A stretch of DNA of 64,000 bases from Streptomyces viridiviolaceus (GTDB lineage: Bacteria > Actinomycetota > Actinomycetes > Streptomycetales > Streptomycetaceae): contig NZ_BMWA01000007.1 of NCBI RefSeq assembly GCF_014650995.1, positions 237,479 to 301,478 on the forward strand. Reading direction: 5' to 3'. Within the stretch, counting starts at the first letter, position 1; each line of letters starts with the position of its first letter. The notes under the pieces were generated by a model that was given only the letters and a program-made list of their open reading frames with translations, was not told where the DNA came from and ran no database searches. The position numbers were made by a program, and so were the translations under genes. Below are positions 16,436 to 21,000 of the stretch, piece after piece.

Positions 16436-17788
16436 TCAGGCCGGATCGTCCAGGGGCGCTGTCCGCCGCCAAGGACGCAGCGCCTCGATCCGCTCCGCCA
16501 GCTCCAGCAGCGTCGCCTCCGCCCCCGGCCGCCCCACCAGCTGCACGGCGCACGGTGCGCCCGAGGGCAGGGTGCCGAAGGGGACCGCCATCGCGGGCCA
16601 GCCCGTCAGGTTCCACGGTGGTGTGAACGGCGAGCAGGCCGAGTTGGCCAGCAGATTGCGCAGCCAGCCCCGTTCGTGCCAGGGCCCCGCCTCGGGGGAG
16701 CGGCGGGCGAGCGCCGGGGTGAGCAGGACGTCGTACTCGGCGAAGAACGGCTCCAGGTGCGCGCGCAGCCGCTCCCGGCCCGCGCCACCGGCCACCCCGC
16801 GCACGAAGCGCCGCCCGACGGCCGCGTGCACCCGGGTGCGACGCGCCAGCCGCCGCGGGTCCAGGCCGCGCGCGTCCACGGACGTACCGGCCGTCCAGTG
16901 GGCCACGGCGGTGAGGCTCAGGGACGCCGGATACGGCGGGTCCGCCCGGCGCACCTGGTGCCCCGTCCTCATCAGCACCGCGGCCGCCTCGCGGACGGCC
17001 GTCCGGTACGGCCCCGCCACGGTGACGCCGGCGATCGGGCTGCGCAGGGAGGCGGCGACCCGGAGTGCGCCGGAGTCCGCGCGGCGGGGCGGCTCGCCGT
17101 CCGCGAGGACCGCGAGCATCAGGCGTGCGTCCTCGACCGTGGTGGCCAGCGGTCCGTTCTCGGACATGCCGAACCAGTCGCCCTGGCCGACCCCGGCCGG
17201 GACCACGCCGTGGCCCGGCTTGATGGTGACCACACCGCAGGTGGCCGCCGGTATGCGCAGCGAGCCCATGCCGTCGTTGCCCAGCGCGATCGGCACCATG
17301 CCGGCCGCGACCGCGGCGGCGCTGCCGCCCGACGAACCGCCCGCCGTGCGCGCCGGGTCCCACGGGTTGCGGGAGGTGCCGTACACGCCCTCCGTGGTGC
17401 CGAACACACACAGCTCGGGCACGTTCGTCAGCCCGACGACCACGGCGCCCGCCGCCCGCAGGCGGGCCACCGTGACGTGGTCGGCCTCGGCCGGGGTGTC
17501 CGGCGTCGCCGCGGAGCCGTTGCGGGTGGACTCGCCCCGCACCGCGAGGTTGTCCTTGACCGCCACCGGCACCCCGGCCAGCGGCAGCCGGCCCAGATCG
17601 CCGCGCGCGCCCACCTCCTCGGCCTCGGCGAGCGCCGCCTCGGCCCGCACCGTGCGGAAGGCGCCGACGCGGCCGTCGAGCTGCGCTATCCGGGCCAGAT
17701 GCTCGGCCACGACCTCACGGGGCGTGGCCCGCTTCTCGCGTACGGCGGCGGCTGTCTCGGCGGCGGTCCGGCCGGCCCAGCTGGTCAC
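16436..17788 (-). CDS. Amidase signature family hydrolase
   Basis: A 450-residue amidase of the Ser-cisSer-Lys type, which hydrolyses amide bonds. The catalytic Lys is in GVPVAVKDNLAV (about 78). The glycine/serine signature is AGGSSGGSAAAVAAGMVPIALG, holding the cis-Ser and the nucleophilic Ser. The C-terminal LPSGAPCAVQLVGRPGAEATLLELA is also typical. The substrate is not predictable. GTG 17788 is preceded by GAGGAG. It resembles the second amidase at 60441-61895, and both have a clear active site, so they look like functional paralogues. The gene borders the decayed region to its right. Confidence 0.9.
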   Translation of the reverse strand: MTSWAGRTAAETAAAVREKRATPREVVAEHLARIAQLDGRVGAFRTVRAEAALAEAEEVGARGDLGRLPLAGVPVAVKDNLAVRGESTRNGSAATPDTPAEADHVTVARLRAAGAVVVGLTNVPELCVFGTTEGVYGTSRNPWDPARTAGGSSGGSAAAVAAGMVPIALGNDGMGSLRIPAATCGVVTIKPGHGVVPAGVGQGDWFGMSENGPLATTVEDARLMLAVLADGEPPRRADSGALRVAASLRSPIAGVTVAGPYRTAVREAAAVLMRTGHQVRRADPPYPASLSLTAVAHWTAGTSVDARGLDPRRLARRTRVHAAVGRRFVRGVAGGAGRERLRAHLEPFFAEYDVLLTPALARRSPEAGPWHERGWLRNLLANSACSPFTPPWNLTGWPAMAVPFGTLPSGAPCAVQLVGRPGAEATLLELAERIEALRPWRRTAPLDDPA

Positions 17789-18179
17789 GGAGGGCTCCTC
17801 GGGGTGCGGTGGGGCGGGGTCACTGCGGGATTACTGACGAGTACGCACGGAGAACTGTGCCCGCTGGAGGGCCCCCGCGTCGAGATGCCGGCCGAGGCCG
17901 ATTCCGGCCCCATGCCGTTCGCGGCCGGCGCCGTCCGCCGGACGTGGCGGCCCCGGGCCGTGGGCGCGGCACCGCCACCAGCCGTTCGAGCGCCCGTGAA
18001 CCTCGACCCCTGGGGTGGAATCCCCCTCTTCCCGGAGGGGGAGGATGTCACCGCCGGCTCGCCCTCGCCCTCGACTCCGCCCCGCCCTCGGCGTCGACCA
18101 CTCCCGGGTCTTCCCGCCGTGGCCCGGCTTCCGTCACCATGACCCGCATCCCGGCAACCGTCACATCGGCAACCACCCG
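17789..18179. other. Spacer before a truncated GH38 gene; likely deletion junction
   Basis: The 391 bp contain no supported gene. The frame that runs into the mannosidase remnant is open from 18015, but its first 55 residues look like translated non-coding sequence rather than mannosidase. The homologous part begins only around 18200, so the junction that removed the catalytic domain is probably close to 18180. Confidence 0.5.
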
Positions 18180-18199
18180 CCCCCGACCACGGAGCGCCC

Positions 18200-19262
18200 C
18201 GGCGGGGGACACCTCCTGGACAACGGCCTGCTGCGGGTCGAGATCGACGCCCGGGGTCTGGTCGTGTCGGCGTACGACGTCGAAGCCGACCGCGAGACCG
18301 TCGCACCCGGCGCGGCGGCCAACCTCCTCCAGCTGCACCCCGACCTCCCGAACATGTGGGACGCCTGGGACGTCGACGAGTTCCACCGCAACTCGGTCAC
18401 CGACCTGACCGATGCCGACGAGGTCGCGCCCGGCGACGACGGCGCCTCGGTGCGGATCGTCAGGTGCTTCGGCTCCTCCCGCGTCACTCAGGTCCTCGCG
18501 CTGCCGCCCGGGGAGCGCCGGCTCGTGGTGGACACCGAGGTGGACTGGCAGGAGACGGAGAAGTTCCTCAAGCTCGCCTTCCCCCTGGACGTGCGCGCCG
18601 AGCGGTACGCGTCGCAGACCCAGTTCGGTCACTTCCACCGGCCCACGCACACCAACACCTCGTGGGAGGCCGCCAAGTTCGAGGCCTGCAACCACCGCTT
18701 CGTCCACCTGGAGGAACCCGGCTGGGGCGTGGCGATCGTCAACGACTCGACGTACGGCCACGACGTGACCCGTACCGTCCGCGCCGACGCCGGTACGACC
18801 ACCACCGTCACCACTGTTCGCGTATCCCTGCTGCGCGCCCCGCGCTTCCCCGACCCCGAGACCGACCAGGGCGTGCACCGCTTCCGGCACGCGCTGGTGC
18901 CCGGCGCGAGCATGGGCGACGCGGTGCGCGAGGGCTGGCGGATCAACGTGCCGGAGCGCAGGGTCACCGGCGCCGGGGAGGTCGCGGCGCTGGTGACGGT
19001 CGACCAGGACGCGGTCGTGATCACCGCCGTCAAACTGGCGGACGACGGCAGCGGCGACGTGGTCGTCCGCTTCCACGAGGCGCACGGCGGCCGGGTCCTG
19101 GCCACGCTCACCGCGGGCTTCGCGGTCGCCGGCGTGACGGTGACGGACCTGCTGGAACGCCCGCCGGCCGAGGAGGGGTCCGCGACCCGGACCGAGGGCG
19201 ACCGGATCACCGTACGGCTGCGGCCGTTCCAGCTGATGACCCTGCGGCTGAAGCGCGCCTAG
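18200..19262 (+). pseudogene. C-terminal remnant of a GH38 alpha-mannosidase
   Basis: The reading frame from LLDNGLLRVEIDARGLVVSAYD to RLRPFQLMTLRLKRA matches the mid and C-terminal beta domains of GH38 alpha-mannosidases, including HFHRPTHTNTSWEAAKFEACNHRFVHL and GWGVAIVNDSTYG. The N-terminal seven-stranded catalytic barrel with its zinc site and nucleophilic Asp (roughly 500 or more residues) is absent. The remnant frame is open from 18015, but no good ribosome site lies near a sensible start. It is therefore a fragment of a once roughly 1,000-residue enzyme, with its stop codon intact. The alternative, a free-standing carbohydrate-binding protein, is less likely because the aldo/keto reductase next to it is also broken. 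Confidence 0.75.
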
Positions 19263-19281
19263 CCCCGGGCCGGGGCCCGGT

Positions 19282-19357
19282 TCACTCCGCGAGCCGGGCC
19301 CGCAGCCATTCCTCCACCTCGCCCACGTGCGCTGCCGCCGCCCGGGCCGCCTCCGGA
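19282..19357 (-). pseudogene. Possible C-terminal fragment of an unidentified minus-strand gene
   Basis: In one minus-strand frame the sequence PEAARAAAAHVGEVEEWLRA runs to a stop at 19282-19284 and looks like an authentic amphipathic C-terminus. Upstream of it the frame turns into antisense of the aldo/keto reductase fragment. I could not identify the parent family. This is a weak call and could be chance. Confidence 0.25.
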
Positions 19358-19365
19358 TCCCGGGC

Positions 19366-19585
19366 GCCGCCGCGATCGCCGGGCTGTACACCGGGGTCGG
19401 CGAGAGCAGGCGCACGACGCCGTGCGGGCCGCGTGGCAGCGGGGCGTCCGCTGCTTCGACACCGCACCGCACTACGGGCCTCGGCGTGTCGGAACGCCGC
19501 CTCGGCGCGGCCCTGCGCGCGTGCCCCCGCGCCGCGTACACGGTCTCCACCAAAGTCGGCCGCCGTCTGTCCCCCCGTCTACGAC
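19366..19585 (+). pseudogene. Frameshifted fragment of an aldo/keto reductase
   Basis: Three stretches in two frames together spell the N-terminal part of a D-threo-aldose/L-fucose-dehydrogenase-type aldo/keto reductase: AAAIAGLYTGVGE, then EQAHDAVRAAWQRGVRCFDTAPHYG (given here as two joined pieces around VRAAW), then GLGVSERRLGAALRACPRAA and YTVSTKVGRRLSP. The first frame change is near 19403. The second is an extra G within 19476-19478. The catalytic Tyr (TAPHYG) is still visible, but the gene lacks its 5' end and everything after about residue 75, and it runs into the 3' end of the next gene. Confidence 0.7.
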
Positions 19586-21000
19586 CTCTGCGCCACCCCG
19601 GCCAGCCGTGTCGGCGGCAGGTACTCCCGTACATACGTCCGCTCCCAGCACGCGCCCGTCTCCCGCAGCTCGCTCCAGGTCGTGTACCGGTAGCGGAACA
19701 GGCGGGCACGGACGAAGCGGGGCGGCGCGTCCGGCGGGAACGGCGAACGGCGCAGCAGCCGGAGCGTGTCGCGGTCGTTCTCCAGCAGCCGCTCCACGAG
19801 GGTGCCGAACCACGAACCGGCGTACGCCGGCGAGAGCGCGGCGAACCACATCAGCCAGTCCAGCCGCAGATGGTACGGCGCGAACTGGCGCGGCCAGCGC
19901 CGAGGATCACCGGGCTTGCCCTTGAACTCGTACTCCCGCCAGTCGGAGTCCTCGCGCGGCACGTCGTCGGCGGTGCCCTCGATCACCACCTCGTAGCGGA
20001 CCCGGCTGACGGTCCCGAAGGCGCCGTAGGTGTTGACCAGGTGCAGCGGATCGAAGGAGCGGTTCATCACCTGACGCCGGGAGATCATGTTGCGGGCCGG
20101 CCGGTAGCTCAGCAGGACCAGCAGCGCCGCCACCGCCAGGACCACGACCTCGTACCACAGCGGGGCGGGGGCCGCGGACGGCGGCTCCACCGGGAACCGC
20201 ACCGCCGACAGGGCCAGCACGATGGTGACCCAGTTCAGCCAGGAGAAGTTGCCCGACAGCACCAGCCACAGCTGGGTGACGATCATCAGGGCCGCGGCGG
20301 CCGTCGCCACGGGCTGCGGGGTGAACAGCAGGAAGGGCACCACGAGCTGGGTGACATGGTTGGCGGCCACCTCGACGCGGTGCAGCGGCCGGGGCAGACG
20401 GTGGAAGAACCAGCTCAGCGGGCCGGGCATCGGCTGGGTCTCGTGGTGGTGGTCCAGGCAGGTCAGCTTCCGCCAGCACTCGTCACCGCGCAGCTTGATC
20501 AGCCCCGCCCCGAACTCGACCCGGAACAGCAGCCAGCGCAGCAGGAACAGGACGACGATCGGCGGGGCCACCTCGTCGTTGCCGAGGAGGACGGCGAGGA
20601 AGCCGGTCTCCAGCAGCAGCGACTCCCAGCCGAACGAGTACCAGGTCTGCCCGACGTTGACGATCGACAGGTACAGCGCCCACGGCACCAGCCACAGCAG
20701 CATGGCGCCCCACAGCGGCAGGAGTGAGTCCAGTCCCGCCACCAGTGCCGCCGACACGGCGCAGCCCGCCCAGGCACAGCCCGCGAACAGGCGGTCCGAG
20801 TAGCGCAGCTGGAACAGGCTCGGCGCCCGTTTGAACGGCACCCGCTCCACGAAGCGGGGCACGGGCAGCATGCCGCGCTCGCCGATCAGCGCGCGGAACT
20901 GCAGGGCCGCCGTCAGGAACGCGACCAGGTACAGCGCGGCCAGGGCCCGCTGGAAGACCAGCCGGGTCAGCCAGTAGTCGGGTGCGGTGAACCACTCCAC
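19579..21000 (-). CDS. Lipase maturation factor family membrane protein
   Basis: A 473-residue polytopic membrane protein of the LMF1/LMF2 family. In animals these are ER proteins needed to fold dimeric lipases; the bacterial role is not established. It has several predicted helices in the first 330 residues. Typical family segments are NVGQTWYSFGWESLLLETGF, FRVEFGAGLIKLRGDECWR, the hydrophilic QRPMP-like loop TQPMPGPLSWFFHRLP, and the C-terminal APYHLRLDWLMWFAALSP. GTG 21000 has GAGGAG about eight bases upstream. It diverges from the PP2C-type phosphatase gene, 116 bp between starts. Its 3' end has taken over the region beside the aldo/keto reductase fragment. Confidence 0.88.
   Translation of the reverse strand: MEWFTAPDYWLTRLVFQRALAALYLVAFLTAALQFRALIGERGMLPVPRFVERVPFKRAPSLFQLRYSDRLFAGCAWAGCAVSAALVAGLDSLLPLWGAMLLWLVPWALYLSIVNVGQTWYSFGWESLLLETGFLAVLLGNDEVAPPIVVLFLLRWLLFRVEFGAGLIKLRGDECWRKLTCLDHHHETQPMPGPLSWFFHRLPRPLHRVEVAANHVTQLVVPFLLFTPQPVATAAAALMIVTQLWLVLSGNFSWLNWVTIVLALSAVRFPVEPPSAAPAPLWYEVVVLAVAALLVLLSYRPARNMISRRQVMNRSFDPLHLVNTYGAFGTVSRVRYEVVIEGTADDVPREDSDWREYEFKGKPGDPRRWPRQFAPYHLRLDWLMWFAALSPAYAGSWFGTLVERLLENDRDTLRLLRRSPFPPDAPPRFVRARLFRYRYTTWSELRETGACWERTYVREYLPPTRLAGVAQRS

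Follow-up and report, generated by a model that had tools for sequence, protein, structure and literature searches.

Ordered Remnants of a Probable N-Glycan and L-Fucose Catabolic Island in Streptomyces viridiviolaceus

Introduction

PMC10154615 reviews what the GH38 and GH5_18 glycoside hydrolases do in the breakdown of N-glycans. An operon for the N-glycan core that combines the two is described for Cutibacterium acnes in PMC6160142, which also names Streptomyces as one of the three dominant genera for GH5_18 sequences. In the C. acnes and Bifidobacterium operons, as presented in that source, GH38 stands beside GH5_18 and the mannose core is broken down in the cytoplasm. The Streptomyces island considered here is similar in this respect. 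It differs from these operons, however, in that some genomes add GH85 to it and a fucose operon lies next to it, and the version of it in the window (the whole analysed stretch of 64,000 nucleotides of the S. viridiviolaceus genome) has been destroyed. Among the titles and abstract openings listed by a literature search, none deals with this locus.

Results and Discussion

The Interval and Its Counterparts in Relatives

The S. viridiviolaceus genome (G000) is a draft of 9,134,388 bases in 153 contigs, and the window corresponds to C7:237479-301478 in it. In the window, an amidase gene and an LMF1-family gene, both intact, are separated by 1,790 bases (Table 1). Between them lie remnants of GH5_18, the GH38 leader, the GH38 C-terminal domains, the tail of an FCD regulator and a piece of an aldo/keto reductase (AKR), which keep the ancestral order. 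The interval is thus very probably the remainder of an island of N-glycan and L-fucose operons, from which serial internal deletions, at least two of them at short direct repeats, have left ordered crumbs. A second LMF1-family gene, 67% identical to the first, is present in the same genome (G000:C34:1250-2671).

Table 1. Features of the amidase–LMF1 interval (positions in the window)
Feature	Position	Strand	Evidence
Amidase gene, intact, left flank	16436–17788	-	PF01425, E 8.1e-83; relatives share flank
Amidase–LacI intergenic remnant	17791–17887		nhmmer, profile of ten relatives, E 8.3e-05, score 2.1 bits
GH5_18 β-mannosidase remnant, ~codons 11–50, 22-base internal gap	18036–18133	+	blastn, nhmmer
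GH38 5′ leader, ribosome-binding-site-like GGAG at 18191–18194	18167–18201	+	93.9% over 33 bases to leaders of L197 and L154
Junction repeat CGCCCCG (7 bp), GH38 leader to codon ~654	18195–18201		Leader alignment
GH38 α-mannosidase C-terminal domains, codon ~654 to stop	18195–19262	+	PF07748, PF17677; solved GH38 structures
GntR/FCD regulator, last 27 codons and stop	19282–19366	-	Sequence matches to relatives
Junction repeat GGCG (4 bp), FCD to AKR overlap	19363–19366		Probe search
Aldo/keto reductase, ~codons 19–87, two single-base indels	19363–19569	+	blastn
Possible last fuconolactonase codons, overlapping LMF1 3′ end	19576–19590	+	Same string in L198
LMF1-family gene, intact, right flank	19579–21000	-	PF06762 and PF25179; adjoins island in relatives

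Alignment with the same interval in relatives located both the intact genes and the deletion breakpoints. The 120 loci from relatives, which were annotated with reference proteins, differ in what lies between the amidase and LMF1 flanks: some have one of two modules, for N-glycans or for fucose, some have both, and some are empty. The N-glycan module comprises a LacI regulator, a solute-binding protein, two permeases, GH5_18, sometimes GH85, and GH38. The fucose module comprises a GntR/FCD regulator, sometimes a second ABC transporter, an enolase-family dehydratase (FucD), an SDR and an AKR, to which many loci add mutarotase-like and L-fucono-1,5-lactonase-like proteins. Because the NCBIfam matches of the latter two fall below the curated cut-offs, the substrate of the fucose module is taken from the gene set.

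A full set of intact GH38, FCD, FucD, SDR and AKR genes occurs in 16 of the 120 loci, and two of these (L146 and L207) have the amidase too; the exact ancestor occurs in no single relative examined. The span from LacI to LMF1 is ~17.8 kb in L194. For a span without the second transporter we estimate about 14 kb, combining the LacI-to-GH38 lengths of relatives with the FCD-to-lactonase length in L146. In a further relative (L226, G146:C1:106000-125900), just the final portion of LMF1 (residues 380–473) comes after the island, most of that gene lying ~60 kb off on the same contig, which represents a rearrangement inside LMF1.

The first-pass annotation had described the interval as a decayed sugar-catabolism locus, formerly a mannose/fucose-type island, with three gene fragments. 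The relatives bear out this description: they hold intact genes in the same order and between the same flanks, with L-fucose oxidation genes adjoining the GH38, GH5_18 and GH85 genes of the N-glycan module, where the window has partial copies joined at breakpoints. All three fragments are real, but the remnants and deletions are more numerous than three, the GH5_18 piece, the GH38 leader and the amidase–LacI DNA having been overlooked. Two marks of pseudogene remnants are present, namely intact orthologues at the same place in relatives and disabling lesions (truncation, frameshift). The combination of GH38, GH5_18 and transport genes, by which we recognize an N-glycan utilisation operon, is found in relatives and on contig C55 of the same genome, whereas the window has remnants only. 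The remnant locus is real and well resolved, and it is ordinary in kind.

Minor Remnants

The GH5_18 family name was taken from solved structures, ScGH5_18 (PDB 7lr7, 7lr8) matching the relatives' intact GH5_18 with an E of 2.7e-207; compared with this protein, the window retains ~40 codons. The nhmmer match covers the whole piece (E 8.6e-06), and blastn aligns 18066–18132 with a best identity of 85% (E 2.6e-14). The weakest matches among the remnants are those of the 5′ half of this piece and of the amidase–LacI intergenic DNA. For the latter, the best blastn E is 1.1e-12, at 73% over 129 columns, and another relative gives 82.6% over 69 columns.

The origin of positions 17918–18035 was sought with blastn and nhmmer, which gave no profile match and one weak match of 48 columns (E 3.2e-04) in L211, inside c18-like sequence there. 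Positions 18134–18166, between the GH5_18 and GH38-leader remnants, have no blastn or nhmmer match. The GH38 leader was aligned by eye to the leaders of 15 relatives; the start codon that follows it in relatives is deleted in the window. In L198, the 3′ ends of the lactonase and LMF1 genes overlap. The possible lactonase remnant of the window was dropped as separate evidence, as it is too short and its bases also encode the 3′ end of LMF1.

At the other end of the interval, what had been noted as a possible minus-strand C-terminal tail proved to be the end of the GntR/FCD regulator, with its stop codon at 19282–19284. The aldo/keto reductase fragment, described as having two frameshifts, indeed carries two lesions, one 1-base deletion and one 1-base insertion, and its best nucleotide identity is 85.6% over 208 columns. 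In a draft assembly, these single-base indels could be sequencing errors.

The GH38 Fragment

The open frame that contains the GH38 fragment (18015–19262) matches PF07748 (E 2.5e-56, full profile) and PF17677 (E 6.1e-13), and a search of this frame for PF01074 (catalytic N-terminal domain) and PF09261 (middle domain) found neither. A relative's full-length GH38 protein matches all four profiles. The fragment is therefore an α-mannosidase without its catalytic domain, as first annotated: it is a GH38 member by descent, through homology of the C-terminal domain, and lacks the PF01074 and PF09261 domains required of a functional enzyme. The solved GH38 α-mannosidases (PDB 7ufs, 7uft, 7ufu, 7ufr) match with an E of 7.8e-62 and align to residues 2–354 of the 355-residue fragment, which has no counterpart of their catalytic and middle domains. 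Among the homologues listed from other genomes, the best shows 87% identity to residues 3–356 of the 357-residue query, within an open frame of 1029 amino acids.

All but four of the listed GH38 matches are in open frames longer than 900 amino acids. Besides the window, the short frames are due to a contig end (G116), a frameshifted full-length gene (G145) and, judging by its coordinates, a frame that runs off the contig start (G112). A free-standing GH38 C-domain family was rejected on these grounds, and the listed matches give no sign that relatives all carry such a short gene. One open frame happens to run through the GH5_18 remnant, the old GH38 leader and the C-terminal domains.

Deletion Junctions

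The deletion at the CGCCCCG repeat took the GH38 start codon and about 653 codons. The first-pass annotation had placed this breakpoint near 18180, the true join being 15–20 bases further on, and the one that it gave at 19366 is exact. The exact CGCCCCG form of the leader occurs in two of the 15 relatives' leaders shown (L071 and L198); most others have A in place of G, so that the repeat shrinks to 4–5 bp.

For the FCD/AKR junction, a probe of 113 bases was used, with two candidates scored per genome. It matched in 99 of 392 genomes, our own counted, and among the matches listed from the 391 other genomes of the genus none crosses the junction, all of them ending at or before base 62 or starting at base 54. 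A search of 223 loci for the exact 27-base string across the junction found it in five, all from this genome. Random deletion ends, drawn 200,000 times in each of four relatives, overlap by at least 4 bp in 3.2–3.5% of cases and by at least 7 bp in 0.15–0.19%. With a sample of two junctions, the overlaps favour deletion at short repeats, which would have proceeded by end joining or slippage. End joining in Streptomyces is reported in PMC5869714, and its scars resemble the window in that deletions occur at non-homologous ends. The breaks in that report are induced ones, however, whereas the mechanism in the window is read from the junctions only.

We have also considered whether the breakpoints and frameshifts are artefacts of assembly or sequencing and the genes are in fact intact, as single-base indels are a common type of error and the assembly is a draft in many contigs. 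The junctions, however, lie inside a 357-kb contig, and no second copy from this lineage was found to carry the missing parts: apart from the fragment, the genome's sole GH38 is an 83% homologue, the best fuconate dehydratase is at 78% and the best AKR at 66%. An artefact is thus extremely improbable, and we continue with genuine deletions.

Selection and Age of the Truncation

The tip of the GH38 C-domain tree that leads to the window has a dN/dS of 0.294 (bootstrap 90% interval 0.209–0.401), compared to 0.208 (0.176–0.239) for the other tips pooled. The window is above the other tips in 97% of 60 bootstraps, and values as high are found in 3 of the 33 comparable tips (dS >0.08). An earlier tree gave 0.280 vs 0.201. 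The control values for the same tip are 0.132 vs 0.183 for LMF1 and 0.242 vs 0.203 for the amidase. Arithmetically, if constrained and neutral time were combined, the neutral share would have to be ~11%. The first and second GH38 trees place the window fragment differently with modest support, and no sister species is claimed for it.

The ratio of first/second- to third-position changes in the AKR remnant is 0.63, vs 0.36 among the 15 nearest relatives, i.e., it is shifted toward neutrality. The corresponding values are 0.34 vs 0.25 for the GH38 C-domain and 0.09 vs 0.20 for the FCD tail (76 columns), which shows no decay. The AKR remnant has 2 indels in 207 bp, a rate at which about ten would be expected arithmetically in the GH38 C-domain, but no frame-shifting indel is seen there in 1065 columns, in line with the first annotation of this domain as in frame. 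Either GH38 was truncated after the AKR damage arose or its C-domain has been maintained, and the former is preferred. A recent truncation is the best fit to the combination of no frameshift and a mildly raised dN/dS, which residual function could also explain. A dN/dS far below 1, the lack of a frameshift and the undecayed FCD tail were all counted against a reading as decay.

These same observations raise the question of whether the C-domain is still used, the frame 18045–19262, which starts in the GH5_18 remnant, then yielding a free-standing β-sandwich such as a sugar-binding module. The frame is open through the crumb, the leader and the C-domain, its ATG at 18045 is preceded by GGAGGG (18034–18039), and the C-domain has both the low dN/dS of 0.29 and no frameshift, where the AKR crumb has two in one fifth of the length. 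We nevertheless consider continued use very unlikely: 0.29 is raised over the pooled 0.21 while the neighbouring LMF1 gene is not raised (0.13 vs 0.18), the native GH38 start codon is deleted, and a free-standing C-domain is absent from the matches listed. That the frame encodes a new protein, composed of the GH5_18 piece, the GH38 leader and the C-domain, whose free-standing β-sandwich binds, e.g., mannose-rich glycans, is highly improbable as well. A recent truncation is therefore retained as the preferred reading.

Intact Copies and Proposed History

Intact copies of both pathways are present elsewhere in the genome, which adds to the first-pass annotation. Contig C55 carries LacI, transporter genes, GH5_18, GH85 and GH38. 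This GH38, the only other one in the genome, has 1014 amino acids, is 83% identical to the fragment and belongs to a clade of 13 sequences (99% bootstrap) that leaves the window fragment outside. The dehydratase, SDR, AKR, mutarotase-like and lactonase genes stand in a row on contig C20 and are 65–78% identical to those of relatives.

An LMF1 piece (residues 419–471) adjoins the C55 GH38 gene. The best nucleotide matches of this LMF1 tail come mostly, not only, from members of the C55 GH38 group or from species that have no GH38 at this locus, and the window's own LMF1 is absent from the best 25 rows. From such sequence relationships, the C55 operon appears to have come from another lineage, although it could instead be an old duplication. 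The presence of an LMF1 3′ piece beside the spare N-glycan operon (L082, G000:C55, 7932-8090) is a scar that suggests an LMF1-linked source locus.

We propose that the ancestor had a two-module island for sugar catabolism, an N-glycan operon and an L-fucose operon. Most of it was then very probably removed by several internal deletions, two or more of which are joined at short direct repeats. The largest deletion in GH38 runs from the start codon to ~codon 653, leaving the C-terminal β domains in frame without a catalytic domain or native start. The loss was probably tolerated thanks to the intact copies of both pathways. The order of events could also be the reverse, with decay first and the spare N-glycan operon acquired later, in which case redundancy would not be the cause. 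The events are undated, and several relatives have lost the island, the space between the flanks being empty of island genes in 8 of the 26 named loci that an amidase or GNAT gene anchors, but the mild rise in dN/dS of the GH38 C-domain suggests a young truncation. Decay before acquisition is thus possible but rather unlikely, and we favour loss in the presence of the spare copies.

Recurrence at the Same Position

Ranked by their LMF1-family gene, the best 80 named relatives comprise 79 records titled Streptomyces and one titled Kitasatospora. A set of 80 named loci, two of which (L164 and L165) belong to one genome, was also inspected for damage to the island. By a coverage criterion, 16 of the 80 loci have a fragmented or split island gene. 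Six of them (L116, L125, L126, L129, L135, L154) show frame splits only, which may be sequencing errors and were left uncounted. The fragments look true in the other ten (L128, L131, L143, L148, L152, L157, L162, L171, L173, L176), which were called from tblastn coverage, a measure that a strongly diverged gene could also lower; L131 and L173 are the two inspected in detail. L131 (Streptomyces sp. TRM70350, 11380–13260) is a second graveyard, in which a different set of pieces has survived in order, from LacI, GH38, FCD, dehydratase, SDR and lactonase. In L173 (S. bungoensis, 18300–20450), GH38 lacks ~codons 239–655 and shows frame changes, the catalytic domain being lost and the C-domain kept.

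Conclusions

The 1.8-kb stretch between the amidase and LMF1-family genes is a gene graveyard of an ordinary kind, whose history can be read unusually well. On its own, the locus alters no view of any gene family. It offers a readable snapshot of a catabolic island in the course of disappearing, with ordered crumbs, junctions at short repeats and intact spares in the same genome. Since Streptomyces genomes range from an intact island through partial decay to an empty interval at this place, the locus could be used to test whether the gain of a spare copy precedes loss, and also how such deletions form.
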